From NCBI RefSeq assembly GCF_003569765.1, contig NZ_QXMG01000052.1:1-38779 (forward strand): 38,779 bases of DNA, written 5' to 3'. Position 1 is the first letter of the stretch; every line of letters starts with the position of its first letter. This stretch comes from Caldimonas tepidiphila. Lineage in GTDB: Bacteria > Pseudomonadota > Gammaproteobacteria > Burkholderiales > Burkholderiaceae_C. Both the position numbers and the translations under genes were made by a program. The notes under the pieces were generated by a model. The model was given only the letters and a program-made list of their open reading frames with translations, did not search any database and was not told where the DNA came from. Positions 9,566 through 27,614 of this stretch are shown here, piece by piece.

Positions 9566-10369
9566 TCAGCCGCCGGCCGCCTGCAGCAGCTGCGCGACCA
9601 CCGCGACCGCGAGCACCTCGGGCGCCTTGCCCGTGATGCCCGGCACGCCGATCGGGCAGGTCAGCCTCGCGATCGCGTCCGGCGCGACGCCGCGCTCCTC
9701 GAGCCGGTGCAGGAAGCGCGCGCGCTTCGTTTTCGAGCCAATCAGCCCGCAATAGGAAAAGTCGCCGCGGCGCAGCACCGCCTCGACGAGGCGCAGGTCC
9801 AGGTCGTGGCTGTGCGTCATCACGAGGAAGAAGCCGCCCGGCGGCGCCGCATCCACCTCGGCCTCGACCGCGTCGACGCAGACGCGCTCGATGTGCGCCG
9901 GCCACTCCGCCCAGTCGCTCGGGAATTCCTCCTCGCGCTCGTCGATCCACTGCACGCGGCAGGGCAGCGTCGCGAGCAGCCGGGCGATCGCGCGGCCGAC
10001 ATGGCCGGCGCCGTGCAGCTGCAGGTGAAAGAGCGCTACCTCGTCGGGCCAGCGCGCGAGCTCGCCCGCGTCGAGCGCCGCGTAGCGCAGCCGTACCGCG
10101 CCGCCGCAGCACTGGCCGAGGCTGGGGCCGAGCGCGTAGTCGCGCGCGAGCGGCAGCGCGCCGGGCCGATCGAGCAGCTCGCGCGCGAGCCGGATCGCCT
10201 CCAGCTCCAGGTGGCCGCCGCCGATCGTGCCGGCGACGCCCCGGGCCGACACGAGCATGCGCGTGCCGGCCTCGCGCGGCGCCGAGCCGCGCACTGCGGC
10301 GACCTCGACCAGCACCGCCGGCCTCGCCGCGGCGAGCCAGCCGGCGGCGGTGTGCTTGAGCGCGTTCAA
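9566..10369 (-). CDS. xdhC: Xanthine dehydrogenase accessory protein XdhC
   Basis: A 267-residue XdhC/CoxI-family protein. XdhC binds molybdenum cofactor, promotes its sulfuration and inserts it into XdhB. Visible features are the N-terminal EVAAVRGSAPREAGTRMLV and GTIGGGHLELEA segments and a C-terminal Rossmann-like part with GAGHVGRAIARLL and CGLIGSKTKRARFLHRL. The chosen start is a TTG at 10369 that overlaps the xdhB stop as TTGA; there is no in-frame ATG before the conserved region, so this rare start with coupling is the best explanation. It is the third gene of the minus-strand xdhABC operon. Confidence 0.92.
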   Translation of the reverse strand: MNALKHTAAGWLAAARPAVLVEVAAVRGSAPREAGTRMLVSARGVAGTIGGGHLELEAIRLARELLDRPGALPLARDYALGPSLGQCCGGAVRLRYAALDAGELARWPDEVALFHLQLHGAGHVGRAIARLLATLPCRVQWIDEREEEFPSDWAEWPAHIERVCVDAVEAEVDAAPPGGFFLVMTHSHDLDLRLVEAVLRRGDFSYCGLIGSKTKRARFLHRLEERGVAPDAIARLTCPIGVPGITGKAPEVLAVAVVAQLLQAAGG

Positions 10370-12693: not shown

Positions 12694-12739
12694 GTCGGGC
12701 TCCGGTGGGGAGGGCAGGCGCGCGGCAGCGGCGGGCGGC

Positions 12740-14221: not shown

Positions 14222-14318
14222 GGGAACCTAGGGAAAGTCAGGAGAGGGTGGAAAAGCAAGAGGCGCACCACCGCGAAAGCGGGGCGATGCGGCGACCTTA
14301 CACCCGGGGCCGGCCCGC

Positions 14319-14360
14319 CGTATACGAGAATGCGAATGATGGATATGGGGGTGGGCATAT
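14319..14360. promoter_or_regulatory. Candidate operator between xdhA and LysR gene
   Basis: In the 137-base divergent gap, two dyads are visible: CGTATACG (14319-14326), and ATATG (14343-14347) paired with CATAT (14356-14360) across eight bases. The second overlaps the LysR start codon. LysR-type regulators commonly bind AT-rich dyads in such divergent gaps and repress their own gene. Which dyad, if either, is used is not determined here. Confidence 0.33.
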
Positions 14361-15321
14361 GACGGCGCAGGCCGAATTCGGGAAGATCGAGCTACACCTC
14401 GTCCGGGTCCTCCACACCTTGATCACCGAACGCAGCGTCTCGCGCGCGGCCCTGAAGCTCAACGCCACGCAGCCGGCGCTCAGCGCGCAGCTGCGCCGGC
14501 TGCGCGAGCTCACCGGCGACGTGCTGCTGGTGCGCTCGGGCAACGGCATGGTGCCCACGCCGCTGGCGCTGGACCTGCTGGAGCCCGCGGGGGCGCTGCT
14601 GCGCGAGGCCGACCGCCTGTTCGGCGCGCCGGGGCGCAGCCGCGCCTTCGAGCCGGCGGCGAGCGACCGTACCTTCCGCATCGCGGCCAGCGACTACCTC
14701 GACCCGCTGTTCCTGCCGCGGCTCGTCGCCGACGTGAAGCGCGCCGCGCCTGCGGTGCGGCTTGACATCGAGCCGCTGACCGCGCAGTTCGACGTGCGGC
14801 GCAGCCTCGCGTCGGGCGAAGTGGACCTCGTGATCGGCAACTGGCTCGAGCCGCCGGAGGAGCTGCACCTCGGGCGGCTGCTCACCGACGAGGTGGTCTG
14901 CCTCGTCGCCGCGGACCACCCGGCGGTGCGCGCGCCGCGGCAGTGGACGGTGGAGCGCTACCTCGCCTGCGAGCATGTCGCGCCGATGCCGCTGCACAGC
15001 GGCGCGGCCGCGCGTGGCGTGATCGACGCGCACCTCGCCTCGCTGGGGCTCGAACGCCGCGTCACGGTGCGCAGCGCGCACTTCGGCCAGATCCCGCAGA
15101 TGGTGGCCGCGAGCCTGCTGGTGCTGACCACCGGGCGCCAGTTCTGCCAGCGCTACCTCGATGCGCTGCCGCTGCGCGTGGTGCGCTGCCCGGTGGCCTT
15201 CCCGCCGATGAACTACTACCAGCTCTGGCACGACCGCACGCACGCGTCGGCGGCGCACCGCTGGTTCCGCGAGCAGGTGCGCGAGGTCGCGCGCCGGCTC
15301 GCGCAACGGAGAACGACATGA
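14359..15321 (+). CDS. LysR-family transcriptional regulator of purine genes
   Basis: A 320-residue LysR regulator. The winged helix-turn-helix is at about residues 10-65 (VLHTLITERSVSRAALKLNATQPALSAQLRRLREL), and the effector-binding domain covers about 90-300. The ATG at 14359 is preferred over one at 14248, because the longer version would add 37 residues before the DNA-binding domain and span the promoter gap. A GGGGGTGG run lies just upstream of the chosen start. The gene diverges from xdhA and its stop overlaps the guaD start (ATGA), so it probably controls both directions in response to a purine or intermediate such as xanthine or urate. The effector is not shown by the sequence. Confidence 0.9.
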   Translation: MTAQAEFGKIELHLVRVLHTLITERSVSRAALKLNATQPALSAQLRRLRELTGDVLLVRSGNGMVPTPLALDLLEPAGALLREADRLFGAPGRSRAFEPAASDRTFRIAASDYLDPLFLPRLVADVKRAAPAVRLDIEPLTAQFDVRRSLASGEVDLVIGNWLEPPEELHLGRLLTDEVVCLVAADHPAVRAPRQWTVERYLACEHVAPMPLHSGAAARGVIDAHLASLGLERRVTVRSAHFGQIPQMVAASLLVLTTGRQFCQRYLDALPLRVVRCPVAFPPMNYYQLWHDRTHASAAHRWFREQVREVARRLAQRRTT

Positions 15322-16688
15322 ATCAGGACACTCCTGCCGGCCCCGCGCCGCGGCGCCTCGCGGTCCGAGGCGACCTGCTCGATTTCACCGCCGACCCGGG
15401 CTGGGCGGTCGAGCCGGGTGCCGCGGCGCGCTTCCGCCCCGACCACTGGCTGCTGGTCGAGGACGGCCGCGTGGTCGGCGCCGAGCCGACGGACGCGGCG
15501 CTCGACGCATCCTGGCTGCGCGTCGACGAGCGCGGGCGCCTCGTGATGCCGGGCTTCATCGACACGCACGTGCACGCGCCGCAGCTCGACGTGATCGCGA
15601 GCTTCGGCACCGAGCTGCTCGAGTGGCTCGAGACCTACACCTTCCCCGCCGAGGGGCTCTACGCCGACGCGGGCGAGGCGGTGCGCGGCTCGGCGCTGTT
15701 CCTCGACTCGCTGCTCGCCTCGGGCACCACCTCGGCGCTGGTCTTCCCCACGGTGCACAAGGTCTCGGCCGAGGCGCTGTTCGAGGCCGCCGAGGCGCGC
15801 GGCATGCGGCTGCTCGCCGGCAAGGTGCTGATGGACCGCCATGCGCCCGAGGGCCTGAGGGACGACGTCGCGCAGGCCGAGGCCGACTGCGTGGACCTGA
15901 TCGAGCGTTTTCATGGCCGCGCGCGCCTGTCCTATGCCGTCACGCCGCGCTTCGCCGCCACCTCCACGCGCGAGCAGCTCGCGATGGCGGGGCGGCTGTG
16001 CGCGTCCTACCCCGGCGTCTACATGCAGACCCACGTCGCGGAGAACCGCGCCGAGGTGCGCTGGATGGCCGAGCTTTTCCCGGAAGCGCGCAGCTACCTC
16101 GACATCTACGCGCGCCACGGGCTCGTGACCGACCGCTCGGTGTTCGCGCACGGCATCTGGCTCGACGACGCCGACCGCGCGGTGCTGCGCGAGGCGGGCG
16201 CCTCGATCGCCTTCTGCCCGTCGAGCAACATGTTCATCGGCTCGGGCCTGTTCGACTGGCTGCAGGCTGAAGCGCAGGGCGTGCGCGTGAACGTCGGCAC
16301 GGACGTCGGCGGCGGCACCGGGCTGTCGATGCTGCGCACGCTCGCCGACGGCTACAAGGTGCAGGCGCTGGTGCCGACGCTGGTGGACGGCGCGACTGAT
16401 CGCAAGCTCACCGCGTGGAAGGGGCTGTACGCCGCCACGCGCGGCGCGGCCGAGCAATTGCACCTGTCGCGGGAAATCGGCAGTTTCGACGCCGGTACAC
16501 TCGCGGACTTTGTCGTCTGGGACTGGGCGATGGGGCCGGTCGCGACGCGCCGCCTGGAGGTGGCGCGCGGCTTGCATGAACGTCTGTTCGCGTGGATGAC
16601 GCTCGGCGACGAGCGCAACGTGGCGTCGGCCTGGGTGGCCGGCGTCGAGCGCTACCGCCGCCCGCCGCTGGCCCGCGAGGCCGGCTGA
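15318..16688 (+). CDS. guaD: Guanine deaminase
   Basis: A 456-residue amidohydrolase that converts guanine to xanthine and ammonia in the cytoplasm. Zinc-binding and catalytic motifs are all visible: HxH at His84 and His86 in MPGFIDTHVHAPQ, TPRFAATST, QTHVAENRAEV, VFAHGIWL, and the catalytic aspartate in VGTDVGGGTGLSML. Together with CPSSNMFIGSGLFDW these are specific to guanine deaminase within the superfamily. The start is set by the four-base overlap with the LysR gene stop. It feeds xanthine to the xdhABC product and is followed by transporter genes after 54 bases. Confidence 0.96.
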   Translation: MNQDTPAGPAPRRLAVRGDLLDFTADPGWAVEPGAAARFRPDHWLLVEDGRVVGAEPTDAALDASWLRVDERGRLVMPGFIDTHVHAPQLDVIASFGTELLEWLETYTFPAEGLYADAGEAVRGSALFLDSLLASGTTSALVFPTVHKVSAEALFEAAEARGMRLLAGKVLMDRHAPEGLRDDVAQAEADCVDLIERFHGRARLSYAVTPRFAATSTREQLAMAGRLCASYPGVYMQTHVAENRAEVRWMAELFPEARSYLDIYARHGLVTDRSVFAHGIWLDDADRAVLREAGASIAFCPSSNMFIGSGLFDWLQAEAQGVRVNVGTDVGGGTGLSMLRTLADGYKVQALVPTLVDGATDRKLTAWKGLYAATRGAAEQLHLSREIGSFDAGTLADFVVWDWAMGPVATRRLEVARGLHERLFAWMTLGDERNVASAWVAGVERYRRPPLAREAG

Positions 16689-16742
16689 AGCCGCGCCCGC
16701 TCCCCCGACAACGGCCCCCGACCCGCAACCGGGATCCTTTCC

Positions 16743-18281
16743 ATGCTGCGACTCGAACTCATTCATATCAGCAAGCAGTACCCGGCGGTCCGGGCGAACG
16801 ACCGCGTGTCGCTGAAGGTCGCGCCCGGCGAGATCCACGCCGTGCTGGGCGAGAACGGCGCCGGCAAGTCCACGCTGATGAAGATCATCTACGGCGCGGT
16901 CCGCCCCGACGAGGGCGAGATCCGCTGGAACGGCCAGCCGGTGGCGGTGCGCAACCCGCAGGAGGCGCGCGCTCTAGGCATCAGCATGGTGTTCCAGCAC
17001 TTCTCGCTGTTCGACACGCTGACCGCGGCCGAGAACGTCTGGCTCGGCCTCGACAAGTCGATGAGCCTCGCCGAGGTCACCGAGCGCATCCGCGCGGTCT
17101 CGGGCGAGTACGGCCTCGACGTCGACCCGCTGCGCCCGGTGCACACGCTCAGCGTCGGCGAGCGCCAGCGCGTCGAGATCGTGCGCGCGCTGCTGACCGA
17201 CCCGCAGCTGCTGATCCTCGACGAGCCGACCTCGGTGCTGACGCCGCAGGCGGTCGAGAAGCTCTTCGTCACGCTGCGCCGGCTGTCGGACAAGGGCTGC
17301 TCCATCCTCTACATCAGCCACAAGCTCGACGAGATCCGCGCGCTCTGCCACCACTGCACTGTGCTCAGGGGCGGGCGCGTCACCGGCGAGGTCGACCCGA
17401 CCCGGGAGACCAACGCCAGCCTGTCGCGGCTGATGATCGGCGCGGAGCCGCCGCAGCTGCGCCACAAGGCCTCGGCACCGGGCGCGGTGGCGCTCGAGGT
17501 GGCCGGGCTGACGCTGCCGCGCCAGTCGCCCTTCGGCATGTCGCTGGAGGGCGTGCGCGTGCAGGTGCGCGAGGGCGAGATCGTCGGCGTCGCCGGCGTC
17601 TCGGGCAACGGCCAGCAGGAGCTGATGGCCGCGCTGTCGGGCGAGGACCGCCGCGCGGCCCCGGGCAGCGTGCGGCTCTTCGGCCAGGACATCGCGCGCT
17701 GGTCGCCGCGCCACCGCCGCAAGGCCGGCCTGCACTTCGTGCCCGAGGAGCGGCTCGGCCGCGGCGCGGTGCCGACGCTGTCGCTGGCGCAGAACACGCT
17801 GCTCACGCGCACCGAGGCGGTGTCGCGCGGCGGCTGGATCCGCACCGGCGAAGTGCGGCGCCTGGCCGAGAACCTGATCGCGCGCTTCAACGTCAAGGCG
17901 GGCGGCCCGGACGCTGCCGCCAAGAGCCTGTCGGGCGGCAACCTGCAGAAGTTCCTCGTCGGCCGCGAGATCGAGGTCCGACCGAAGGTGCTGATCGTCG
18001 CGCAGCCGACCTGGGGCGTGGACGTGGGCGCGGCGGCGCAGATCCGCGCCGAGCTGCTCGCGCTGCGCGACGCGGGCTGCGCGCTGCTGGTGGTCAGCGA
18101 GGAACTGGACGAACTGTTCGAGATCAGCGACCGGCTGGTCGTGATCGCGAAGGGAAGACTGTCGCCCGTCGTGCCGGCGGCCGAGGCCACGGTGGAACAG
18201 ATCGGCGCGTGGATGAGCGGGCTGTGGCCCGCCGCCGACGCCGGCGGGGCGAGCACGGAGAAGATGCATGCTCAAGCTTGA
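16743..18281 (+). CDS. Purine/nucleoside ABC transporter ATP-binding protein
   Basis: A 512-residue double ATPase of the BMP-type nucleoside importer family, similar in layout to the ribose/galactose importer ATPases. The first domain has Walker A GENGAGKST, signature LSVGERQRVE and Walker B LLILDEPTSVLTP. The second has a degenerate Walker A-like GVSGNGQQEL, signature LSGGNLQKFLVGRE and VLIVAQPTWGVDVG, in which the usual acidic Walker B residue pattern DEP is replaced by AQP; this half is likely less active, as is common in the family. It overlaps the first permease by 14 bases. Location between guaD and the adenine deaminase supports purine transport. Confidence 0.94.
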   Translation: MLRLELIHISKQYPAVRANDRVSLKVAPGEIHAVLGENGAGKSTLMKIIYGAVRPDEGEIRWNGQPVAVRNPQEARALGISMVFQHFSLFDTLTAAENVWLGLDKSMSLAEVTERIRAVSGEYGLDVDPLRPVHTLSVGERQRVEIVRALLTDPQLLILDEPTSVLTPQAVEKLFVTLRRLSDKGCSILYISHKLDEIRALCHHCTVLRGGRVTGEVDPTRETNASLSRLMIGAEPPQLRHKASAPGAVALEVAGLTLPRQSPFGMSLEGVRVQVREGEIVGVAGVSGNGQQELMAALSGEDRRAAPGSVRLFGQDIARWSPRHRRKAGLHFVPEERLGRGAVPTLSLAQNTLLTRTEAVSRGGWIRTGEVRRLAENLIARFNVKAGGPDAAAKSLSGGNLQKFLVGREIEVRPKVLIVAQPTWGVDVGAAAQIRAELLALRDAGCALLVVSEELDELFEISDRLVVIAKGRLSPVVPAAEATVEQIGAWMSGLWPAADAGGASTEKMHAQA

Positions 18282-19392
18282 GGCGCGGCCGCAGCCGTCG
18301 CGCGCGATGTCGATGGCCTCGCCGCTGATCGCGCTGGCGATCACGGTGCTGATCGGCGTCGTGCTGTTCATGGTGCTCGGCAAGGACCCGCTGCGCGGCC
18401 TGCAGATGTTCTTCTGGGAGCCGGTGAAGAGCGCCTACGCCTGGTCGGAGCTGGCCGTGAAGGCCACGCCGCTGGTGCTGATCGCGCTCGGCCTCGCGGT
18501 GTGCTTCCGCTCCAACGTCTGGAACATCGGCGCCGAGGGCCAGTACATCCTCGGCGCGATCTTCGCCGGCGGCGTCGCGATGCAGGCCACGCCCGAGACC
18601 GGGCGCTGGATCGTCGTCGCGGTGCTCGCTGCCGGCATGCTCGGCGGCCTGCTGTGGGCCGGCATCGTCGCGCTGCTGCGAGACCGCTTCAACGCCAACG
18701 AGATCCTCGTGAGCCTGATGCTGGTGTATGTCGCCGACATGCTGCTCGCCTACCTCGTCTACGGGCCCTGGAAGGACCCGGGCGGCTTCAACTTCCCGCA
18801 GACGATCAGCTTTCTGAAGTCGACACAGGTGCCGCGCCTGCTGCCGGGCTTTCGCGTCAACATCGGCGTGCTGATCGCGCTCGCGGCCGTGGCGGCCTTC
18901 TGGCTGTTCATGTTCCGCACCTATGCCGGCTTCCAGCTGCAGGTCGGCGGCCTCGCGCCCGCGGCGGCGCGCTACGCCGGCTTCTCGTCGCGCAGCGCGC
19001 TGTGGACGGCGCTGCTGCTGTCGGGCGCGATGGCCGGCCTCGCGGGCGGCCTGGAGGCGGCCGGACCGCTCGGCCAGCTCACCCCGCACGTCTCGGCCGG
19101 CTACGGCTTCGCCGCGATCATCGTCGCCTTCGTCGGCCGGCTGCACCCGGTCGGCATCGTGCTGTCGGGCATATTGATGAGCATGTTCTACATCGGCGGC
19201 GAGCTCGCGCAGTCGCGCCTCGGCCTGCCCAAGTCGATCACCGGCGTGTTCCAGGGCCTGCTGCTGTTCTCGCTGCTGGCCTGCGACACGCTGATCCACT
19301 ACCGGCTGCGCTGGGCGCGCGTGCCGTCCACCCCGGCCACCCGGCCCGCCGCCGCCGTCGCGGCGGACGCCCGACCCACGGAGACCCGCTGA
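18268..19392 (+). CDS. Purine/nucleoside ABC transporter permease 1
   Basis: A 374-residue membrane protein with about eight to nine hydrophobic segments and the family hallmark SNVWNIGAEGQYILGAIFAGG. The region NANEILVSLMLVYVADMLL and the cytoplasmic-loop region around APAAARYAGFSSR correspond to the ATPase-contact part. It belongs to the BPD-type-2 permease family used by BMP-dependent nucleoside importers. Its start lies inside the end of the ATPase gene and its stop shares a base with the next permease start (TGATG), so all three membrane-complex genes are tightly coupled. It forms a heterodimer with permease 2. Confidence 0.93.
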   Translation: MLKLEARPQPSRAMSMASPLIALAITVLIGVVLFMVLGKDPLRGLQMFFWEPVKSAYAWSELAVKATPLVLIALGLAVCFRSNVWNIGAEGQYILGAIFAGGVAMQATPETGRWIVVAVLAAGMLGGLLWAGIVALLRDRFNANEILVSLMLVYVADMLLAYLVYGPWKDPGGFNFPQTISFLKSTQVPRLLPGFRVNIGVLIALAAVAAFWLFMFRTYAGFQLQVGGLAPAAARYAGFSSRSALWTALLLSGAMAGLAGGLEAAGPLGQLTPHVSAGYGFAAIIVAFVGRLHPVGIVLSGILMSMFYIGGELAQSRLGLPKSITGVFQGLLLFSLLACDTLIHYRLRWARVPSTPATRPAAAVAADARPTETR

Positions 19393-20312
19393 TGGAGAGC
19401 TTCGCCCTGCTCATCGCCGCGACGCTCAACGCCGGCACCGTGCTCGCGATCGCCGCGCTCGGACTGCTGATCAACGAGCGCTCGGGCATCGTCAACCTCG
19501 GCGCCGAGGGCATGATGCTCGTCGCCGCGGTCGCCGGCTTCGCCACCGCCGTGCACACCGGCAGCGACCTGCTGGCCTTCGCGGCCGGCGCGGGCGCGGG
19601 CGCGCTGCTCGCCGCGCTCTTCGGCGCGCTGGTGATCTGGCTCAACACCAACCAGTACGCCTCGGGCCTGGCGCTGAGCCTCTTCGGCGCGGGCTTCTCG
19701 GCCTTCGTCGGCATCCGCTACACCCAGGAGAAGCTCTCGGCGCGGCCGCACTTCGAGATTCCCTTCCTCGCCGACATCCCGCTGCTCGGGCCGGCGCTGT
19801 TCCGCCACCATCCGATGGTCTACCTCGCGATCGCGCTGACGGCGGGCCTCGCCTGGTTCCTCTACCGCTCGCGCGCCGGCCTCGTGCTGCGCGCGGTGGG
19901 CGAGTCGCCCGAGTCGGCGCATGCGCTGGGCTATCCCGTCAGGCGCATCCGGCTCGCCGCGGTGGCGGTCGGCGGCGCGCTGTGCGGCCTGGCCGGCGCC
20001 TACCTGTCGGTGGTCTACACCCCGCTGTGGGTCGAGGGCATGGTCGCGGGCAAGGGCTGGATCGCGCTGGCGCTCACGACCTTCGCCACCTGGCGGCCGG
20101 CGCGCGTGCTGCTCGGCGCCTACCTGTTCGGCGGCGTGACGATGCTGCAGTTCCACCTGCAGGGGCAGGGCGTGGACATCCCGAGCCAGTGGCTGACGAT
20201 GCTGCCCTACCTCGCGACCATCGTCGTGCTGGTGCTGATCTCGCGCAACCCGACCTGGATCCGCGTCAACATGCCGGCCTCGCTGGGCAAGCCCTTCTTC
20301 CCCGGCTCCTGA
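19392..20312 (+). CDS. Purine/nucleoside ABC transporter permease 2
   Basis: A 306-residue membrane protein of the same permease family as its neighbour, with the diagnostic LLINERSGIVNLGAEGMMLVAA segment near the N-terminus and RAVGESPESAHALGYPVRRIR in the cytoplasmic loop that contacts the ATPase. The start codon overlaps the stop of permease 1 by one base. It should complete the membrane channel of the purine importer together with permease 1. It is followed by a 65-base gap with a candidate separate promoter for the binding protein. Confidence 0.94.
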   Translation: MESFALLIAATLNAGTVLAIAALGLLINERSGIVNLGAEGMMLVAAVAGFATAVHTGSDLLAFAAGAGAGALLAALFGALVIWLNTNQYASGLALSLFGAGFSAFVGIRYTQEKLSARPHFEIPFLADIPLLGPALFRHHPMVYLAIALTAGLAWFLYRSRAGLVLRAVGESPESAHALGYPVRRIRLAAVAVGGALCGLAGAYLSVVYTPLWVEGMVAGKGWIALALTTFATWRPARVLLGAYLFGGVTMLQFHLQGQGVDIPSQWLTMLPYLATIVVLVLISRNPTWIRVNMPASLGKPFFPGS

Positions 20313-20333
20313 GCGCCGCGCGCAGCCCCCATA

Positions 20334-20339
20334 GATAAT
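20334..20339 (+). promoter_or_regulatory. Candidate -10 element for the BMP lipoprotein gene
   Basis: GATAAT lies within an AT-rich patch (CATAGATAATTCG) 39 bases before the BMP start codon; no good -35 is visible 17 bases upstream. Binding proteins are often made in excess of their membrane partners, so an internal promoter would make sense. This is a weak call. Confidence 0.33.
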
Positions 20340-20377
20340 TCGCGTTTCCCCCCACTCATCGATTCACTGGAGTTGCC

Positions 20378-21541
20378 ATGTCCCATGTCTCCAAGCGCTC
20401 GCTGCTGAAGCTGGCCGGCTGGTCCTCGCTGGCTGCCGCCGCGGCCCTGGTCGGCTGCGGCAAGAAGGAGGAGGCGGCGCCCGCCGCTGCCACGACCGAA
20501 GCCCCGGCGTCGGCTGCGGCTGCAGCCAAGCCCGAGCCGCTCAAGATCGCCTTCGCCTACGTCGGCCCGGTGGGCGACGCGGGCTGGACCTTCGCGCACG
20601 ACAACGCGCGCAAGGAGGTCGAGAAGGAGTACGGCGACCGCGTGCAGACGAGCTTCGTCGAGAGCGTGCCCGAAGGCCCGGACGCCGAGCGCGTGATCCG
20701 CGACCTGGTCGGCCAGGGCAACAAGATGATCTTCGGCACCACCTTCGGCTACATGGACTACATGCTGAAGGTCGCCGCCGACAACCCGGAGGTGAAGTTC
20801 GAGCACGCCACCGGCTACAAGACGGCCGAGAACCTGCGCACCTACGACGCCCGCACCTACGAGGGCGCGTACATGGCGGGCGTGATCGCCGGCAAGATGA
20901 CCAAGTCCAACGTGCTCGGCGTGGTGGGCTCGGTGCCGATCCCCGAGGTGATCCGCAACATCAACTCGTTCACGCTCGGCGCGCAGAGCGTCAACCCGAA
21001 GGTCACCACCAAGGTGGTCTGGGTCAACAAGTGGTTCGATCCGCCGAAGGAAGGCGAGGGCGCGCAGTCGCTGCTGAACGCCGGCGCCGACGTGCTGTTC
21101 CAGAACACCGACTCGTCGGCCGTGCTGCAGACCGCCGAGAAGGCCGGCAAGCTCGCCTTCGGCTGGGACTCCGACATGAGCCACTTCGGCCCGAACGCGC
21201 ACCTGGGCTCGGCGATCATCAACTGGGCGCCGTACTACAAGAAGGCCGTCGGCGACGTGCTCGAGGGCAACTGGAAGACCGGCTCCACCTGGTGGGGCGT
21301 CAAGGAGAACACGATCGACCTCGTGAAGATCTCCGACAAGGTGCCGGCCGAGACGCGCGAGCAGGTCGACAAGATCAAGGCCGGCCTCAAGGACGGCAGC
21401 TTCGCGATCTGGAAGGGCCCGATCGCCGCGCAGGACGGCAAGGTGGTGCTGAAGGAAGGCGAGGTCGCCGACGACAAGTTCCTGCACGCCATCAACTACT
21501 ACGTGAAGGGCGTCGAGGGCAAGGTGCCTGCGGGCAAGTGA
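20378..21541 (+). CDS. BMP-family substrate-binding lipoprotein
   Basis: A 387-residue periplasmic binding protein of the basic membrane protein (BMP/Med) family, which binds nucleosides or purine bases for ABC import. The lipobox LVGC places the lipid-anchored cysteine at residue 27. An Ala/Pro-rich linker then leads into the two-lobe domain starting PLKIAFAYVGPVGDAGWTF. Other family segments are VRDLVGQGN-type RDLVGQGNKMIFGTTFGYMDY and GVVGSVPIPEVIRNINSF. GGAG lies upstream of the ATG. It closes the guaD-transporter set and is followed by a strong terminator. The exact ligand (base or nucleoside) is not certain. Confidence 0.93.
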   Translation: MSHVSKRSLLKLAGWSSLAAAAALVGCGKKEEAAPAAATTEAPASAAAAAKPEPLKIAFAYVGPVGDAGWTFAHDNARKEVEKEYGDRVQTSFVESVPEGPDAERVIRDLVGQGNKMIFGTTFGYMDYMLKVAADNPEVKFEHATGYKTAENLRTYDARTYEGAYMAGVIAGKMTKSNVLGVVGSVPIPEVIRNINSFTLGAQSVNPKVTTKVVWVNKWFDPPKEGEGAQSLLNAGADVLFQNTDSSAVLQTAEKAGKLAFGWDSDMSHFGPNAHLGSAIINWAPYYKKAVGDVLEGNWKTGSTWWGVKENTIDLVKISDKVPAETREQVDKIKAGLKDGSFAIWKGPIAAQDGKVVLKEGEVADDKFLHAINYYVKGVEGKVPAGK

Positions 21542-21593
21542 CGGGATGGCGGGCGCCCCGGGCCGCGAGGCCCCCGGGCGCCGGCTTCCGGCA

Positions 21594-21637
21594 GGCCGCC
21601 GCGGCGCGATCGATGCGCCCGGCGGCCTTCTTCTTTT
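21594..21637 (+). terminator. Rho-independent terminator after the purine transporter
   Basis: A GGCCGCC arm (21594-21600) pairs with GGCGGCC (21621-21627), with further GC pairing inside, followed by a pyrimidine tract TTCTTCTTTT. A second GC-rich inverted repeat precedes it at 21551-21583. Together they separate the transporter operon from the Rieske oxygenase gene. Confidence 0.7.
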
Positions 21638-21682
21638 CAGGCGCACGCGCCGGCGCAGTGCGGCGTGACGGAGACTGACGCG

Positions 21683-22681
21683 ATGATCGAGAACCGGCTC
21701 TGGCATCCGGTGGCCGCCGAGGCCGACCTGGGCGACGCGCCGCTGGCGGTGACGCTGCTCGGCGAGGACCTGGTGCTGTGGCGCGACGAGGAGGGCGGCG
21801 TGCAGGCCTTCGCCGACCGCTGCCCGCACCGCGGCGCGCGGCTGTCGCTCGGCAAGGTGGTGCGCGTCGACGGCGAGGCGCGGCTCGAGTGCCCCTACCA
21901 CGGCTGGCAGTTCGGCGCGGGCGGCGGCTGCCGCCGCATCCCGGCGGTGCCGGCCTTCAGCCCGCCGGCCTCGCACGCGGCGACGCGCCATGCGGTCGTG
22001 GCGGCCCATGGGCTCCTGTGGGTGCGGCCCGAGGCCGAAGGGGAGGGGCTGCCGGTGGCGCCGCCCGCCTTCGAGGCCGAGCCCGACGCGCGGCTGCGCA
22101 AGCTGCTGTGCGGCCCCTACGACGTGGAGACGAGCGCGCCGCGCATCGTCGAGAACTTTCTCGACATGGCGCACTTCAGCTTCGTGCACGAGGACTGGCT
22201 CGGCGAGCGCGGGCATGCGGAGCTGCCCGCCTACCAGGTGGCGACCGGCGCCGACGGCCTGCGCGTGACGAACTGCCAGGCCTGGCAGCCGCAAAGCAAC
22301 CGCCTGTCCACCGCCGGCTCCTGGGTCGCCTACGACTACGCGGTGCCGCACCCCTTCATGGCGGTGCTGAGCAAGGCGCCCGAGCGGCAGGCCGGCTACC
22401 GCGAGTCGATCGCGCTCTTCGTCTGCCCGCAGCAGCCCGAGCGCAGCCGCGTCTGGTTCCGGCTCGCGGTGCCGGACTTCGCATCGAGCGACGCGGAGCT
22501 GCGCGCCTTCCAGCACACCATCTTCGCGCAGGACCGCCCGGTGCTCGAGTCGCAGCGCCCGAAGCGCCTGCCGGTCGGGCGCGACGCGCCGGCGACCGAG
22601 GTGCACAGCGCCGCCGACCGCAGCTCGGCGGCCTACCGGCGCTGGCTGCGCGAGCTGGACGTGAGCTTCGGCGTGTGCTGA
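21683..22681 (+). CDS. Rieske non-heme iron oxygenase, alpha subunit type
   Basis: A 332-residue Rieske oxygenase. The [2Fe-2S] motif is CPHRG...CPYHGW (about residues 45-70), and the mononuclear iron site has N-F-L-D-M-A-H-F-S-F-V-H, i.e. the D-x2-H-x4-H pattern. The start at 21683 has GGAG nine bases upstream; an in-frame GTG at 21665 would lack a better site. The size and layout match single-component oxygenases of the VanA and methylxanthine demethylase (NdmA/NdmB) type, which need a separate reductase. Its position inside a purine catabolism region makes a purine-derived substrate plausible, but the substrate cannot be read from sequence. It is convergent with the ferredoxin-globin fusion gene 13 bases away. 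Confidence 0.88.
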   Translation: MIENRLWHPVAAEADLGDAPLAVTLLGEDLVLWRDEEGGVQAFADRCPHRGARLSLGKVVRVDGEARLECPYHGWQFGAGGGCRRIPAVPAFSPPASHAATRHAVVAAHGLLWVRPEAEGEGLPVAPPAFEAEPDARLRKLLCGPYDVETSAPRIVENFLDMAHFSFVHEDWLGERGHAELPAYQVATGADGLRVTNCQAWQPQSNRLSTAGSWVAYDYAVPHPFMAVLSKAPERQAGYRESIALFVCPQQPERSRVWFRLAVPDFASSDAELRAFQHTIFAQDRPVLESQRPKRLPVGRDAPATEVHSAADRSSAAYRRWLRELDVSFGVC

Positions 22682-22694
22682 AGGCGGCGGCCGC

Positions 22695-23855
22695 TCAGGC
22701 CGCGGCCGTCTCGTCGGCGCCGGAGCGCACCGCCGGCGCGCACTGCGGGCAGCTGATCTTGCCCAGGCGCACGTGGTAGAGCACCTCGGTGCCCTCGGGC
22801 ACCTCGCCGCCGCAGTGGTCGCACATCGAGCCCGAGGTGAGCACCTCGCTGGCGTAGCCGTGCAGCGGGAACTCGATGCCGTCCATCACCTTGGGCCAGG
22901 CGGCGGACTTCACCATGTCGCGCCGCCAGTGCTCCTCGAAGCGCGTCCAGCGCGCGATCTGCGCCGGTCGCAGGCCGTGCTTCTCGAGCGTGCGCACCAT
23001 CAGCGCCTGGCGGTAGTCGAACAGCTCGTCGGAGATCACCATCCAGTGGTGCGCGTTGCGCGGCCGCTCGCCGAAGTAGACCTTCTCGCCGGTCATCATC
23101 AGCTGCAGGAAGGAGTACTGCTTGCCGATCGCGCGGTCGATCGTCACGCCCTCGAAGAAGGACGCGAGGCGCTCGTCGGCATAGACCTGCGCGTAGAAGT
23201 CCTCCAGCACGCGGCGCACGGTGCGGCCCTCGTCGAGCTCGTGCCACAGCGCCGGGTCGGGCGCGGGCGGCTCGAGCTCGGCGCCGGCCGCCGCCGCGCC
23301 GGACTCCACCGGGCCCCAGACCTCGAACTCCTGGCCGAAGGGCAGCTCCTCGCGCAGCCAGGCGAGCGGCGGCTCCCCGCCGGGGCAGTGCAGCACCGCC
23401 TCGATCTGCCAGTCCTCCATCGGGTCGCTCGTCAGCAGCAGCACCGGGTCGAGCCCGTCGCCGCTGACCAGGCGCAGGTGCTGCCCCGGGCGGTAGGCGA
23501 GCGTGCGCATCGGCTCGAAGCGCAGCCGCAGGAAGGGCGTGCCGCGGCCCTCGACCGCGGTCAGCACGCAGGTGGTGCGCAGGTCGCTCGCGCGCGGCGC
23601 CTCCAGCGCGAGCGAGCGCTGCGGCCGGCACTGGCAGGCCAGCAGGTAGCCCAGCTCCTTGAGCCCCTGCGGCAGGCCGCGCTGCGCGGCCGCCGGCACC
23701 TCGCCCTCGCCACAGCGCAGCATGCAGGCGTGGCAGACGCCTCCGCGGCACGAGAAGGCCACGTCGATGCCGCTGCGCAGCAGCGCGTCGAGCACCGTCT
23801 CCTGCGGCCGCATCTCGACCTCCCGCCCTTGCAGGCTCACGGTGACCGGGCTCAT
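22695..23855 (-). CDS. Ferredoxin / degenerate flavoreductase barrel / truncated globin fusion
   Basis: A 386-residue multidomain protein. Residues 1-85 form a plant-type [2Fe-2S] ferredoxin with ligands Cys36, Cys41, Cys44 and Cys74. Residues 90-185 resemble the FAD-binding barrel of ferredoxin reductases (RPGQHLRLV, then DPMEDWQIEAVLH and WLREELPFG). The flavin-binding R-x-Y-S motif is replaced by P-V-L-L near 137-140, and no NAD-binding domain follows. Residues 203-295 look like a group I truncated hemoglobin, with FYAQVYAD (Tyr221 at B10) and the probable proximal histidine His269 in RNAHHW. The tail has C-D-H-C (345-348) and C-P-Q-C (369-372), a zinc-ribbon-like pair. A GGGAGG ribosome site precedes the ATG. 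Electron transfer from ferredoxin to heme is an inference. Confidence 0.85.
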   Translation of the reverse strand: MSPVTVSLQGREVEMRPQETVLDALLRSGIDVAFSCRGGVCHACMLRCGEGEVPAAAQRGLPQGLKELGYLLACQCRPQRSLALEAPRASDLRTTCVLTAVEGRGTPFLRLRFEPMRTLAYRPGQHLRLVSGDGLDPVLLLTSDPMEDWQIEAVLHCPGGEPPLAWLREELPFGQEFEVWGPVESGAAAAGAELEPPAPDPALWHELDEGRTVRRVLEDFYAQVYADERLASFFEGVTIDRAIGKQYSFLQLMMTGEKVYFGERPRNAHHWMVISDELFDYRQALMVRTLEKHGLRPAQIARWTRFEEHWRRDMVKSAAWPKVMDGIEFPLHGYASEVLTSGSMCDHCGGEVPEGTEVLYHVRLGKISCPQCAPAVRSGADETAAA

Positions 23856-24046
23856 GCGCGCCTCCCGGGTTCGGCTTGCGGGTGCTCGGGCGTCGGGGCA
23901 GGGGGCTTCATAAGCATCGTGAAATATCTGGTTACGAAAGCGTCTGCGGGATTAAACCACCTTCCCCCGCGCCGCGGGAAGGACTCCGGCATGCTTGTCG
24001 CCTGGAACCGACCGGTTCCCGTTTCGCAGACCCAGGAGAACATCCG

Positions 24047-25105
24047 ATGACGACGCCGCCCTTCGATCCCGCCCGCATTCCGCGCGAGGCGCTGCCCGCG
24101 CTGGTGCAGGCCTGCCCCAAGGCGGAGCTGCACATCCACATCGAGGGCTCGCTGGAGCCGGAGCTGATCTTCGCGCTCGCGCAGCGCAACGGCGTGAGCC
24201 TGCCCTACGCGAGTGTCGAGGCGCTGCGCGCGGCCTACGCCTTCACCGACCTGCAGAGCTTCCTCGACATCTACTACGCCGGCGCGAGCGTGCTGCTGCA
24301 CGAGCGCGACTTCGAGGACATGGCCTGGGCCTACCTGCAGCGTGCGCATGCGGACCACGTCGCGCATGCCGAGATCTTCTTCGACCCGCAGACGCACACC
24401 GCGCGCGGCGTGGACATCGGCGTGGTGTTCCGCGGCCTGGGCGCGGCCTGCGAGCGCGCGCGGCGCGAGCTGGGCCTGTCCACCGCGCTGATCCTGTGCT
24501 TCCTGCGCCACCTGAGCGAGGAGGACGCGTTCGCGACGCTCGAGCAGGCGCTGCCGTATCGCGAGCACTTCATCGGCATCGGGCTCGACTCGAGCGAGCG
24601 CGGCCACCCGCCGGAGAAGTTCGCGCGCGTCTTCGCCCGCTGCCGCGAGCTGGGGCTGCGCCTCGTCGCCCATGCCGGCGAGGAGGGGCCGCCGGCCTAC
24701 ATCGAGAGCGCGCTCGACGTGCTGCGGGTCGAGCGCATCGACCACGGCGTGCGCTGCCTGGAGGATGCGGCGCTGGTGAGGAGGCTCGCGCGCGATCGCG
24801 TGCCGCTGACCGTCTGCCCGCTGTCGAACGTGAAGCTGTGCGTCTACCCGCAGATGGCGCAGCACCGGCTCGTCGAGCTGCTCGACGCGGGCCTGTGCGC
24901 CACCGTCAATTCCGACGACCCGGCCTACTTCGGCGGCTACGTGAACCGGAACTTCCTCGAGATCTTCGCCACGCTGCCGCTCGACGCCGGGCATGCCTGG
25001 CAGCTGATGCGCAACAGCTTCGAGGCGAGCTTCATCGACGAGGCGGCGCGCGCGCGTCATCTCGCCGCGGTCGACGACTGCTTCCGGCGCTTCGCGGCGG
25101 CTTGA
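24047..25105 (+). CDS. Adenine deaminase (adenosine deaminase-like family)
   Basis: A 352-residue metal-dependent deaminase. Zinc-site motifs are the HxH pair His29/His31 in AELHIHIEGSLEPE, then HAGEEGPPAYI, RIDHGVRCL and VNSDDPAYFGGY. The combination of EEGPP, CPLSNVKLCV and SDDPAYFGGY is characteristic of the adenine deaminase branch (the type studied in Pseudomonas) rather than true adenosine deaminase, so the likely reaction is adenine to hypoxanthine. It is transcribed away from the globin fusion gene across 191 bases and supplies hypoxanthine to xanthine dehydrogenase. Adenosine as substrate is the main alternative. Confidence 0.9.
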   Translation: MTTPPFDPARIPREALPALVQACPKAELHIHIEGSLEPELIFALAQRNGVSLPYASVEALRAAYAFTDLQSFLDIYYAGASVLLHERDFEDMAWAYLQRAHADHVAHAEIFFDPQTHTARGVDIGVVFRGLGAACERARRELGLSTALILCFLRHLSEEDAFATLEQALPYREHFIGIGLDSSERGHPPEKFARVFARCRELGLRLVAHAGEEGPPAYIESALDVLRVERIDHGVRCLEDAALVRRLARDRVPLTVCPLSNVKLCVYPQMAQHRLVELLDAGLCATVNSDDPAYFGGYVNRNFLEIFATLPLDAGHAWQLMRNSFEASFIDEAARARHLAAVDDCFRRFAAA

Positions 25106-25215: not shown

Positions 25216-25785
25216 TCATGCCGCCCGCGGCGCGAAGCGCTCCTCCATCTCCATCATCGCCGCCAGCGTCATCAGCACCGTCTTCACGTCCTCGCGGCGG
25301 CGCGCGTCCATGCCGAGCACCGGGATGCAGCGCTGCTGCGACCAGCGCGGGTGGCTGCCGAGATAGTCGCGGTAGATGTCGAGCGGGCGCTCGCGCCGGC
25401 AGTCGACATGGGTGACGCCGATCACGAGCGGCTGCAGCCACCGGCCCATGCGGCGGTGCAGCGCGTCCAGGTAGTGCTCCAGGTCCGCCAGCGGGTCGGC
25501 GCGGCCGTGGTCGACCAGCAGCACCACGCCGCGCGACTGCTCGAGCAGGATGTCCCACATGAAGTCGAAGCGGTCCTGGCCCGGCGCGCCGTAGAGCCGG
25601 ATCTTGCTGCGGGCGTCGAGGCGGATCACGCCCAGGTCCATCGCGATGGTGGTGTGCTCCTTGAGCCGGGCCGTCTCGTCCGTGGCCCGCGCCTCGGTGT
25701 CCACCACCTCGATGTCGCTCGCGCTGCGCACCGCGCGCGTCTTGCCCGCGCCGACCGGGCCGATGAACAGGATGCTGCACTCCAT
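25216..25785 (-). CDS. Small Ras-like GTPase, COG2229/CvnD type (copy 1)
   Basis: A 189-residue single-domain GTPase. G1/P-loop GPVGAGKT is at residues 9-16. The switch region T-T-I-A-M-D-L-G at 45-52 resembles the T-T-V-A-M-D-F-G of Streptomyces conservon GTPases (CvnD). G3 is G-A-P-G-Q at 66-70 in LYGAPGQDRFDFMWD, where the usual Asp is lost as in other members. The G4 position reads T-H-V-D (125-128) instead of N-K-x-D. The GTPase has a close paralog at 26536-27102, roughly two-thirds identical by eye. It follows its small partner gene by 13 bases. Such GTPases act with roadblock or sensor proteins in polarity and signalling; a role here is unknown. Confidence 0.87.
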   Translation of the reverse strand: MECSILFIGPVGAGKTRAVRSASDIEVVDTEARATDETARLKEHTTIAMDLGVIRLDARSKIRLYGAPGQDRFDFMWDILLEQSRGVVLLVDHGRADPLADLEHYLDALHRRMGRWLQPLVIGVTHVDCRRERPLDIYRDYLGSHPRWSQQRCIPVLGMDARRREDVKTVLMTLAAMMEMEERFAPRAA

Positions 25786-25798
25786 GGCCGCGCTCCCT

Positions 25799-26260
25799 TC
25801 AGCAGCAGGCAGTGAGGTGGCGCCACAACCGGCCCGCCAGCGTGTCGCTGCACCGGCGCTGCGGCGGCGGGCTTTCCCCGGCGGCGAGCGGGACGTCCTC
25901 CGGCAGCGCCGCCCCCTGCTCCAGGGGCCGCACGTGGCCGAGGCGGCGCAGCGCCGCCAGCAGCGTCAGCGTCTCGTCGTCGGGCAGGTCCAGCACCCGC
26001 GCCACCAGCAGCCCGGCCGTGCGCTTGCGCCACAGCAGCGCGCAGACGGGCACGAGCCGGCGGTTGAGTTGCGGCGGCAACTCGGTGAGATTCGGCCACG
26101 ACACCAGCTCCAGCAGCTGCACCGCCAGGCGCTCCCGCCCGGGCTCCTGCCGGGCCTGCTCCAGGGCGAGCTGCCACTGCAGCGGCAGCGGCTCGGGGGC
26201 GCGGGCGTGCTGCGGGGCCGGGGGCGCCGCGGGCGGGGAAATGACGAGCAGGGTTTCCAT
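25799..26260 (-). CDS. Small GTPase-partner protein (copy 1)
   Basis: A 153-residue protein. The ATG at 26260 is chosen because GGGAGAG lies just upstream on the minus strand; an earlier start at 26284 lacks this. The N-terminal part is proline-rich and variable. The core contains LVSWPNLTELPPQL, LLWRKRTAGLLVARVLDLPDDE and LLAALRRLGHV, nearly the same pattern as in the second module. Short predicted helices ending LRRLGHV would suit a winged-helix-like fold such as those fused to or paired with MglA-type GTPases, but this is only a resemblance. The tail is basic and ends in two cysteines. It is cotranscribed with the GTPase. Function is unknown; a regulator or effector of the GTPase is the simplest guess. 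Confidence 0.75.
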   Translation of the reverse strand: METLLVISPPAAPPAPQHARAPEPLPLQWQLALEQARQEPGRERLAVQLLELVSWPNLTELPPQLNRRLVPVCALLWRKRTAGLLVARVLDLPDDETLTLLAALRRLGHVRPLEQGAALPEDVPLAAGESPPPQRRCSDTLAGRLWRHLTACC

Positions 26261-26381
26261 GTGGACTCTCCCAAGATGTCGCATGCCGGTTTGGCCCCGG
26301 ACGCCCTTGCGGAAAGGCGCGCTTGCGGCTTCCAGGAGGACGGTCGCTCACATCGCTTGTGCCTGCTGCGGCTCGGGGTTG

Positions 26382-26410
26382 ATTCCGACTGTGCTGGACG
26401 GATGTGTCAA
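26382..26410 (-). promoter_or_regulatory. Candidate promoter for GTPase module 1
   Basis: On the minus strand, a perfect -35 TTGACA (26405-26410 on plus as TGTCAA) is followed after 17 bases by CGGAAT (26382-26387), a poor -10. The patch around 26400-26430 is AT-rich against a GC-rich background. The leader to the partner-gene start would be about 115 bases. Confidence 0.4.
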
Positions 26411-26535
26411 AAAGATGTATTTGAATGTTTCGTTTCCGCCTTGCCCGCCCCCGGCCTGATCCGCCGCGCTCCTCGTCCTGCCTGCTTCGCCTTGCACTGC
26501 GCCTCCCGGCCGCAGTCCCGCCGCACCGCCCCTTC

Positions 26536-27102
26536 TCAGGCGGGCCTCGGGAATCTCTCCCGCATCTCCAGCATCGACACCAGCGTCAGCAGCAGCATCT
26601 TCATGTCCTGCCGGTCGCGCGCGTCCGCCTCCAGGACCGGAAGGCGGCAGGCGCCGTCCCACCGGGCCCGGCGCTCCAGATAACGGCGGTAGGGCCTCAG
26701 CGATCGCTGCGGGCACAGATCGACATGGGTGACGCCGAGCACGAGCGGGCAAGGCCGCTCCCCCATGCGGGCCTGGAGTTGCTCCAGGTAGTGCTCGAGG
26801 TCCGACAGCGGGTCCTCGCGGCTGTGGTCGATCAGCAGGATCACCCCCTCGGACTGATCGAGCAGGATGTCCCACATGAAGTCGAAGCGGTCCTGGCCCG
26901 GCGCACCGTAGAGCCGGATCCTGTCCCGGCCGTCGAGTCCGATGACGCCCATGTCCATCGCCACCGTCGTGTGGCGCTTGAGCTGCGTGGTGTCGTCGGT
27001 GGCCTCGGCGTCGGTGTCGACGACCTCGATGTCGCTCAGCGTGCGCACCGCCTCGGTCTTGCCGGCACCGACCGGCCCGAGGAAAAGAATGCTCCTCTCC
27101 AT
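26536..27102 (-). CDS. Small Ras-like GTPase, COG2229/CvnD type (copy 2)
   Basis: A 188-residue paralog of the GTPase at 25216-25785. All the same motifs are present: GPVGAGKT near the N-terminus, H-T-T-V-A-M-D-M-G in the switch region, LYGAPGQDRFDFMWDILL for G3, and GVTHVD for G4. The first 80 residues differ from copy 1 at only about 17 positions, while the C-terminal half is more divergent. The start at 27102 has a purine-rich AAAAGGAGG just upstream on the minus strand. It follows its partner gene by 14 bases, the same arrangement as copy 1, so the pair was duplicated as a unit. Which proteins switch it on or off is not visible in this window. Confidence 0.87.
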   Translation of the reverse strand: MERSILFLGPVGAGKTEAVRTLSDIEVVDTDAEATDDTTQLKRHTTVAMDMGVIGLDGRDRIRLYGAPGQDRFDFMWDILLDQSEGVILLIDHSREDPLSDLEHYLEQLQARMGERPCPLVLGVTHVDLCPQRSLRPYRRYLERRARWDGACRLPVLEADARDRQDMKMLLLTLVSMLEMRERFPRPA

Positions 27103-27116
27103 GGTTCGCCTCCTTT

Positions 27117-27614
27117 TCAGTGCACGGTGACCAGCCAGCGGCGGAACTTGCCGAGCAGCGACTGGTCGGGCAGCGGGGGCGGCAGCGCCGGCTCCTCGCG
27201 GCGGCCGCCGGCGTCGCCGCCGGGAAGCGGGACGCCCGCGGCCTCGACGTGGCCGAGCGCCAGCAGCACCTGCAGCAGCACCGCCACCTCCCCGGCAGGC
27301 AGGTCGAGCACCCGGGGGATCAGGGCGCCGGCGGTCCGCTTGTGCCACAGCAGCCCGCAGATCCGCGCCGCGGGCACGGCGAGCTCCTGCGGCAGCCGCG
27401 TCAGGTTGGGCCAGGACACGAGGCCGAACAGCCGGCTCATCAGCCCGGCCTCTGCGCAAGGGAGCTGCCGCGCTTCGGCGACCGCTTCCAGCCAGCGGGA
27501 CGCGGCCTCCGGGTTCCCGGACGCGAGGGGCGGCCTCGGGAAGGGATTGCGCGAGAGGAGGATTTCCGGGGCACGGGCGGGAAAGGGCATTCGGGAGGCA
27601 TCGCTAGTGTTCAT
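27117..27614 (-). CDS. Small GTPase-partner protein (copy 2)
   Basis: A 165-residue paralog of the partner protein of module 1. The start at 27614 is the first ATG before the conserved part. The shared core reads LVSWPNLTRLPQEL, then CGLLWHKRTAGALIPRVLDLPAGE and LLQVLLALGHVEA. The N-terminal 50 residues and the C-terminal tail (PLPDQSLLGKFRRWLVTVH) are different in sequence from copy 1, although both end in a basic W-containing helix. This pattern, a conserved core with drifting ends, suggests the core contacts the very similar GTPases, while the ends give each module its own partner. That reading is an inference. Confidence 0.75.
   Translation of the reverse strand: MNTSDASRMPFPARAPEILLSRNPFPRPPLASGNPEAASRWLEAVAEARQLPCAEAGLMSRLFGLVSWPNLTRLPQELAVPAARICGLLWHKRTAGALIPRVLDLPAGEVAVLLQVLLALGHVEAAGVPLPGGDAGGRREEPALPPPLPDQSLLGKFRRWLVTVH

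Follow-up and report, generated by a model that had tools for sequence, protein, structure and literature searches.

The Caldimonas tepidiphila protein described here carries a plant-type [2Fe-2S] ferredoxin domain, a flavoreductase-type barrel without its flavin motifs, a group I truncated globin (trHb1) and a tail with paired C-x2-C motifs in one chain, and it belongs to a family that occurs in four architectural forms and is associated across genomes with signalling-type genes. We tentatively read the protein as a heme/[2Fe-2S] sensor giving input to a Roadblock-like/ABC-phosphatase signalling module, and we put the chance of this just short of even. The gene lies in a window (the whole stretch of DNA that was analysed, 38,779 nucleotides) at the following positions:

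22695..23855, minus strand: ferredoxin - degenerate FAD barrel - trHb1 - CxxC/CxxC tail protein (form B, see below), 386 aa, ATG start
23589..23855, minus strand: plant-type [2Fe-2S] ferredoxin domain, residues 1-89, with Cys36/41/44/74 (Pfam PF00111)
23307..23579, minus strand: flavoreductase-type barrel without the RxYS and GxxS flavin motifs, residues 93-183
22908..23258, minus strand: group I truncated globin, residues 200-316, with Tyr221, Gln246, His269 and His270 (Pfam PF01152; 3aq5, 1dlw, 1idr)
22731..22907, minus strand: C-terminal tail, probable metal-binding knuckle, residues 317-375, with Cys345/348/369/372

In the 386-residue query Pfam placed Fer2 (PF00111) at residues 6-79 (E 2.7e-15) and Bac_globin (PF01152), above its cut-off, at residues 211-299 (E 5.6e-9), and matched neither an FAD or NAD domain nor a DNA-binding domain; no NCBIfam family exceeded its own cut-off. 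A sequence search of the PDB aligned the P450 reductase GcoB (5ogx) to residues 5-183 (1.3e-13) and the group 1 trHb 3aq5 to residues 204-315 without net gaps (1.5e-9). The latter alignment puts H269 on the proximal His and Y221 on the distal Tyr, at positions which we take to be F8 and B10, respectively. The AlphaFold2 model, made from an alignment of 64 sequences, has a mean pLDDT of 91.2 and a pTM of 0.59, meaning that the domains are modelled well but their relative placement is not. When this model was submitted to Foldseek, the trHb 1dlw (TMt 0.88) and HbN 1idr (0.82), ferredoxins at about 0.7-0.8 (1rfk 0.79) and BenC-type reductases (BenC 1krh, E 2.2e-11) were matched. Pfam, PDB, AlphaFold2 and Foldseek thus agree on the domain order proposed in the initial annotation, and structure prediction and domain search alike find the globin fold in residues 200-316. 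The cysteines of the ferredoxin, the RPGQ of the barrel (residues 122-125), Tyr221, His269 and the paired C-x2-C motifs all stand where that annotation had placed them, and the lack of the flavin motif R-x-Y-S and of an NAD domain was borne out as well, the residues aligned to R-x-Y-S being P-V-L-L. The Bac_globin profile, the 2/2 fold, the proximal His and the B10 Tyr mark the query globin as a group I trHb, for which heme binding is predicted. For the tail, the PDB profile search gave no convincing match, those to EL5 (E 0.0085) and to a RUN/FYVE protein being weak, and the globin-tail part had no match among the plasmids searched.

Relatives were collected in one scan of a genome collection, which yielded 79 loci from the best 80 of 109 confirmed stretches; together with L002, L003 and the query they make up a family set of 82 sequences, and because of this selection the counts of forms are not population frequencies. 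Among these 82 (best 80 of 109) the globin and tail are common to all four forms and the front part varies: form A, ferredoxin-FAD-NAD-globin-tail, accounts for 39 sequences, form B, ferredoxin-barrel-globin-tail, for 14 including the query, form C, ferredoxin-globin-tail, for 11, and form D, globin-tail, for 18. Three of the D sequences (L003, L076 and L095) begin at the edge of a contig and could be truncated A-C forms, and in the L003 genome a ferredoxin piece lies at the end of another contig. In the A form L083 the first 325 residues match BenC-type reductases and fold likewise, with the globin following, and the NAD(P) domain present there is absent from the query. It is clear that the layout of the query is real and beyond chance, since 14 sequences have it, one of them (L002) in a two-contig genome. 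Two loci have longer open reading frames, with about 490 residues ahead of the ferredoxin (L098 2556-5603) and about 400 residues ahead of the globin (L069 4804-6567); in both cases the start may be too early.

Within the family set (best 80 of 109) His269 and His270 are present in all 82 sequences, Tyr221 in 81 and Gln246 in 69. The four ferredoxin cysteines are complete in 14/14 B and 11/11 C forms, and in form A three of them are kept in 38/39 sequences and Cys74 in 39/39. The four tail cysteines are found in 14/14 B, 11/11 C and 38/39 A forms, and in all 18 D forms except for Cys369 (16/18). The flavin motifs follow the form of the protein: in A the R and Y of R-x-Y-S are kept in 39/39 sequences and the S in 38/39, and both the G and S of GxxS in 39/39, while R-x-Y-S is complete in 0/14 and GxxS in 0/14 of the B forms. 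Mean identity within B is 0.35 for the barrel, 0.48 for the ferredoxin and 0.64 for the globin (12 rows, without L040 and L041), against 0.44 for the barrel and 0.40 for the ferredoxin within A, and judged from these sequences the barrel in B seems relieved of cofactor binding. Nevertheless, the barrel is not neutral, as shown by a dN of 0.217 against a dS of 0.949 between the query and its nearest relative L031; for the whole protein the values are 0.195 and 0.827, and dN is lower than dS in every domain. The suggestion in the initial annotation that the reductase is reduced to a linker therefore stands in part: comparison of A, B and C shows that it has decayed with the Fe-S centre kept beside the heme domain, but the barrel is still folded in the model and constrained by selection. 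A gene that is decaying or chimeric and without function, for which the lost flavin motif of the barrel could be cited, is scarcely credible in the light of the 14-sequence layout and these substitution rates, and was rejected on those grounds.

A tree was built on the globin and tail alone and rooted at the midpoint, some of its deep branches being weak. It places the query, with support 100/100, in a clade of 17 sequences: 12 B forms, 4 C forms and 1 D form, L003 from a contig edge. Two further B forms, L040 and L041, pair up elsewhere in the tree, the Marinobacter C forms make up a separate group, and L072, a C form, falls with strong support inside the A forms. The strongly supported branches require at least two changes for B and at least three for C, and the simplest reading of the tree suggests that the NAD domain was lost repeatedly while ferredoxin and globin were kept; a possible alternative is that the reductase was gained in some A forms. 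The query can accordingly be pictured as a stripped "reversed flavohemoglobin". With the flavin motif and NAD domain gone, a form B protein needs an electron donor from outside, which speaks against the self-contained NO dioxygenase considered in the initial annotation; the complete A forms could be self-contained.

Recurring neighbour families were obtained by clustering the genes around the loci, and because the gene calling was crude, adjacency was recounted by tblastn. Family 1 is a 135-aa Roadblock-like protein, whose kinship with Roadblock rests on a single profile match (probability 84.8, 51 columns) and was not found by Pfam or the PDB profile search. Family 2 is a fusion of an ABC ATPase with a DSP-type phosphatase, family 3 a small MglA-like GTPase, family 4 a protein of 360-400 aa in many cases and without a Pfam match, family 5 Robl_LC7 and family 6 a CxxCxxCC protein. 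The ATPase/phosphatase fusion (L123 5077-6531 and relatives) is represented by 37 members from as many loci; a Walker A pattern is present in every one and a Cys-x4/5-Arg-[ST] pattern in 33. The globin gene has one or more of families 1-5 beside it in 54/79 loci (best 80 of 109), namely A 30/39, B 7/12, C 9/11 and D 8/17, and in 35 of the 48 loci whose flanks exceed 4 kb on each side; within about 6 kb no module family was found in 5/12 B loci, nor at L002.

Family 1 is local in 51/79 loci and was found elsewhere in the genome for 22 of the 26 loci without a local copy that were searched whole (A-C 17/17, D 5/9), leaving 4/9 D genomes without it. This amounts to 73 of 77 genomes, the number 77 being reached by setting aside L086 and L102, which have no local family 1 and were left out of the whole-genome search. 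The ABC-phosphatase is local in 44/79 loci; among the 35 remaining genomes it was found elsewhere in 28 at E 1e-15 and in 25 at 1e-40, so that 69/79 have it locally or, at E 1e-40 or better, elsewhere, as counted in globin-carrying genomes only. The GTPase is adjacent in 34/79 loci; among the 45 genomes without a local copy it was found elsewhere in 12 (1e-25) and in three more at 1e-7 to 1e-9 only, and 30 gave no match at 1e-6, the nearest relative L031 among them. Counted by form, local and elsewhere together, the GTPase is present in A 26/39, B 7/12, C 10/11 and D 3/17. Many of the genomes are drafts, which makes these absences soft. In the two-contig genome of L002, family 1 and the ABC-phosphatase are present elsewhere and the GTPase as a distant match only (26% identity; 2.1e-26 by profile). 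At L143, the same record as L039, the B globin gene is flanked by Robl_LC7 on one side and a winged-helix/Roadblock gene on the other, all in a row of one direction. Other genes seen near the globin gene are dynamin-type GTPase families at the Rhodobacterales A-form loci L085, L102, L104 and L108 (Pfam, one member each) and a GGDEF/EAL-type family at L046, L049, L052, L059 and L061 (Pfam on the L046 member), a possible link to c-di-GMP.

The association was also followed in genomes unselected for the gene. In a class sample of 184 genomes the globin-tail part was found at E <1e-50 in the query's own genome and two others, and G060 gave a weak match (5.7e-11) to the globin part only; family 1 was found at E <1e-30 in the own genome and 3/183 others, both carriers included, with matches near 1e-12 in three more genomes. 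In a phylum sample of 397 genomes (E 1e-25) the globin-tail part again occurred in the query's genome plus two more, and family 1 in the query's genome plus at least 7/396 others, both carriers included; these phylum counts are possibly low, at most 10 and 8 candidates having been scored per genome. The carrier G638 is the same record as locus L039. The chances of such co-occurrence are about 2e-4 (class) and 3e-4 (phylum) if genomes are taken as independent, and are optimistic owing to kinship between the genomes. The GTPase occurs in at least 44/396 other phylum genomes, both globin carriers included, and being frequent without the globin it is not a specific partner; as the partner of the family it was rejected on this count together with the 12/45 genomes without a local copy that have it elsewhere. 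In three globin-free genomes with the ABC-phosphatase/family 1 pair the GTPase is missing from the 16 kb around the pair and present elsewhere.

In the window the following genes of the module type lie near the query gene:

25216..25785, minus strand: small Ras/MglA-like GTPase, module family 3, 189 aa (Pfam ATP_bind_1 5.2e-11; Ras 8e-4, below cut-off)
25799..26260, minus strand: short family-4-like protein (37% identical to the family 4 protein of L032, E 9e-17; no Pfam match)
26536..27102, minus strand: another MglA-like GTPase of 188 aa, with 66% identity to the one at 25216..25785
27117..27614, minus strand: another short family-4-like protein, assigned from its position and the look of its translation only

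These are two tandem pairs of a short family-4-like gene and a GTPase gene (25216-27614, minus strand), without the receiver part seen in relatives, and they are separated from the globin gene by a plus-strand gene for adenosine deaminase. The first GTPase is 59% identical to a Polaromonas module GTPase, and by analogy with Group 3 MglA systems (PMC4316618) the protein at 25799..26260 is probably a winged helix lacking the receiver part. Both GTPases have THVD as G4 and DAR as G5; among the 30 members of the GTPase family DAR is found in 22 and [NT]KxD is kept in 4. In the available text of Wuichet and Sogaard-Andersen (PMC4316618), Group 3 MglA is described as having a G4 without Lys, a DAR G5, a receiver/winged-helix partner and one or two Roadblock proteins. 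The module resembles it in the altered G4 and DAR G5 of its GTPase, the Roadblock partners and the receiver/winged-helix protein, and differs in that the same text names no globin or ABC-phosphatase partner and in that the GTPase is not constant in the globin family. Coupling of the GTPase to Roadblock and receiver/winged-helix genes is seen at L143, at L145 and at a third copy in the host genome (L123); the window copies stand beside short family-4-like genes only. This third GTPase lies on contig C10 with an ABC-phosphatase, family 1 and Robl_LC7 and is not followed by a globin, and a second ABC-phosphatase/family 1 pair of the host lies on C20. The region 10366-25105 of the window encodes xanthine dehydrogenase-type subunits, an amidohydrolase, an ABC transporter with a Bmp protein, a VanA_C Rieske oxygenase and the adenosine deaminase; it is, as judged from sequence, a probable purine-use region, and the Rieske oxygenase may act on a purine. 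Since the other module genes are on other contigs, and the B globin of L143/L039 occupies the very spot left globin-free on C10, the globin gene may have moved into this region.

The main rival to a sensor would be an NO dioxygenase, or a heme-oxygen enzyme of another kind, that is reduced through its ferredoxin by an external reductase, with the signalling genes regulating it or merely co-inherited; we consider this a serious alternative whose probability stays clearly below even. Tyr221 and Gln246 agree with the pocket of trHb1, where the Tyr B10/Gln E11 pair has a role in NO dioxygenation, the A forms carry a complete NADH-FAD-FeS chain and the GTPase is not constant, and the available text of a review (PMC3820574) names FNR-type donors for trHbs. 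On the other hand, it would be odd for an enzyme of high turnover to give up its own reductase, as B and C have, the steady partners resemble signalling genes, and no nitric-oxide gene is among those recurring neighbour families that Pfam identified.

A redox partner for another enzyme had also been envisaged in the initial annotation, and the Rieske oxygenase next door would be the obvious candidate: the end of its gene is only 13 bases from the globin gene, and the ferredoxin-barrel part resembles oxygenase reductases. The two genes are convergent and thus not one transcript, however, L031 adjoins pyruvate dehydrogenase genes instead, the globin would be superfluous for such a role and no Rieske gene is among those recurring families that were identified by Pfam; a carrier for the Rieske oxygenase of the purine cluster is therefore very unlikely, and was rejected as the main reading for its convergent orientation and its absence from the identified families. 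It also appears improbable that the Cys4 tail contacts nucleic acid or a transcription factor and makes the protein a redox-dependent regulator outside the module, since no DNA-binding domain was found by Pfam, and the EL5 and RUN/FYVE matches that might point this way, as does the retention of the tail in all four forms, are weak.

In our searches of open-access PMC papers we found no description of this architecture or of its association with signalling genes. Flavohemoglobins of the Hmp type also combine a globin and an FNR-type reductase in one chain, the NADH-FAD chain being complete in form A, but the order is reversed in the present family, with a C-terminal 2/2 truncated globin in place of an N-terminal 3/3 globin, an extra ferredoxin and a Cys4 tail, and the query lacks the flavin motif and NAD domain. 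Group I trHbs such as HbN and GlbN share the fold, Tyr B10, Gln E11 and His F8, and differ in lacking the fused ferredoxin and barrel, the second invariant His270 and the tail. The BenC/GcoB-type reductases have the ferredoxin-FAD-NAD order of form A and the plant-type [2Fe-2S] domain and barrel of the query; the family adds a C-terminal globin, and form B is without RxYS (0/14) and the NAD(P) domain. Globin-coupled sensors carry an N-terminal sensor globin and a transmitter, unlike the query, where the globin is C-terminal and no transmitter was found by Pfam. A 2006 survey, in its available text, gives flavohemoglobins and globin-coupled sensors as the chimeric globins (PMC1457004), and the terms ferredoxin, fusion and 2Fe-2S do not occur in that of a paper on the trHb family (PMC4720485). 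The trHb donors named in the accessible part of PMC3820574 are FNR-type reductases, as in the Legionella glbN/reductase operon and a nitrate reductase-trHb fusion; this raphidophyte fusion likewise joins a trHb to a reductase of the FNR superfamily, but it is a eukaryotic nitrate reductase and a plant-type ferredoxin is not mentioned there. HGbRL of Methylacidiphilum is a 3/3 globin fused to Roadblock that is proposed as a sensor and said to be unique to one genus in the available text of PMC4476040; it shares the coupling of a heme globin to Roadblock and differs in its 3/3 globin, its single chain with Roadblock and the lack of a ferredoxin.

For the sensor reading we rely on the domain order with its predicted folds, on the ferredoxin cysteines and heme His being kept while the flavin motif was lost, on the adjacency of families 1-5 in 54/79 loci, on the steady companionship of family 1 and the ABC-phosphatase, with family 1 present in both carriers of each control sample, on the gene row at L143 and the two GTPases in the window, and on the HGbRL precedent, as far as the available text of PMC4476040 describes it. 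The signalling companions, which did not figure in the initial annotation, lend some support to the oxygen sensor that it listed among its options. Against it stand the GTPase, which is inconstant and frequent without the globin, the 5/12 B loci and L002 without a nearby module family, the deaminase gene on the opposite strand and the off-contig position of the other module genes, the 4/9 D genomes without family 1, the ABC-phosphatase/family 1 pairs of globin-free genomes, the single profile match behind the Roadblock kinship of family 1, the fit of Tyr B10 and Gln E11 to an NO dioxygenase and the enzyme-like form A. The inconstancy of the GTPase, with the Roadblock-like protein and the ABC-phosphatase ranked first among the partners, is what keeps our estimate for the sensor just under even.

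The domain order, the lost motif, the four forms and the association across genomes are shown by the sequences; in the scheme that follows we infer the cofactors, the route of the electrons, the ligand, a contact between protein and module, and sensing as opposed to catalysis. The full form of the family would be an NAD(P)H-FAD-[2Fe-2S]-trHb1 protein with a Cys4 tail, and in the query lineage electrons would pass from a separate reductase to the ferredoxin and on to the heme. Most likely the ferredoxin, by holding the heme ferrous, would allow it to bind O2 or NO, and the ligand or redox state would be conveyed, via the tail or by contact, to Roadblock-type proteins and from these to the phosphatase and the GTPase. 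The Roadblock-like protein and the ABC-ATPase/phosphatase fusion would be the steady parts of the module, to which many beta- and gammaproteobacteria appear to add the MglA-like GTPase, Robl_LC7 and the receiver/winged-helix protein. That the family has shed its own reductase more than once, leaving the ferredoxin/reductase pool of the cell to set the activity of both the heme and the Roadblock-type switch, is a plausible extension, although we think it rather more doubtful than probable.

Most of the known heme-gas sensors act on kinases, cyclases or transcription factors. If the sensor reading is true, a heme-gas sensor feeding a Roadblock/phosphatase/GTPase module would provide a signal for these little-studied systems. 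The series from A through B to C, in which a flavin enzyme appears stripped to a ferredoxin-globin core, would offer a direct test of Fe-S to heme electron transfer within one chain.
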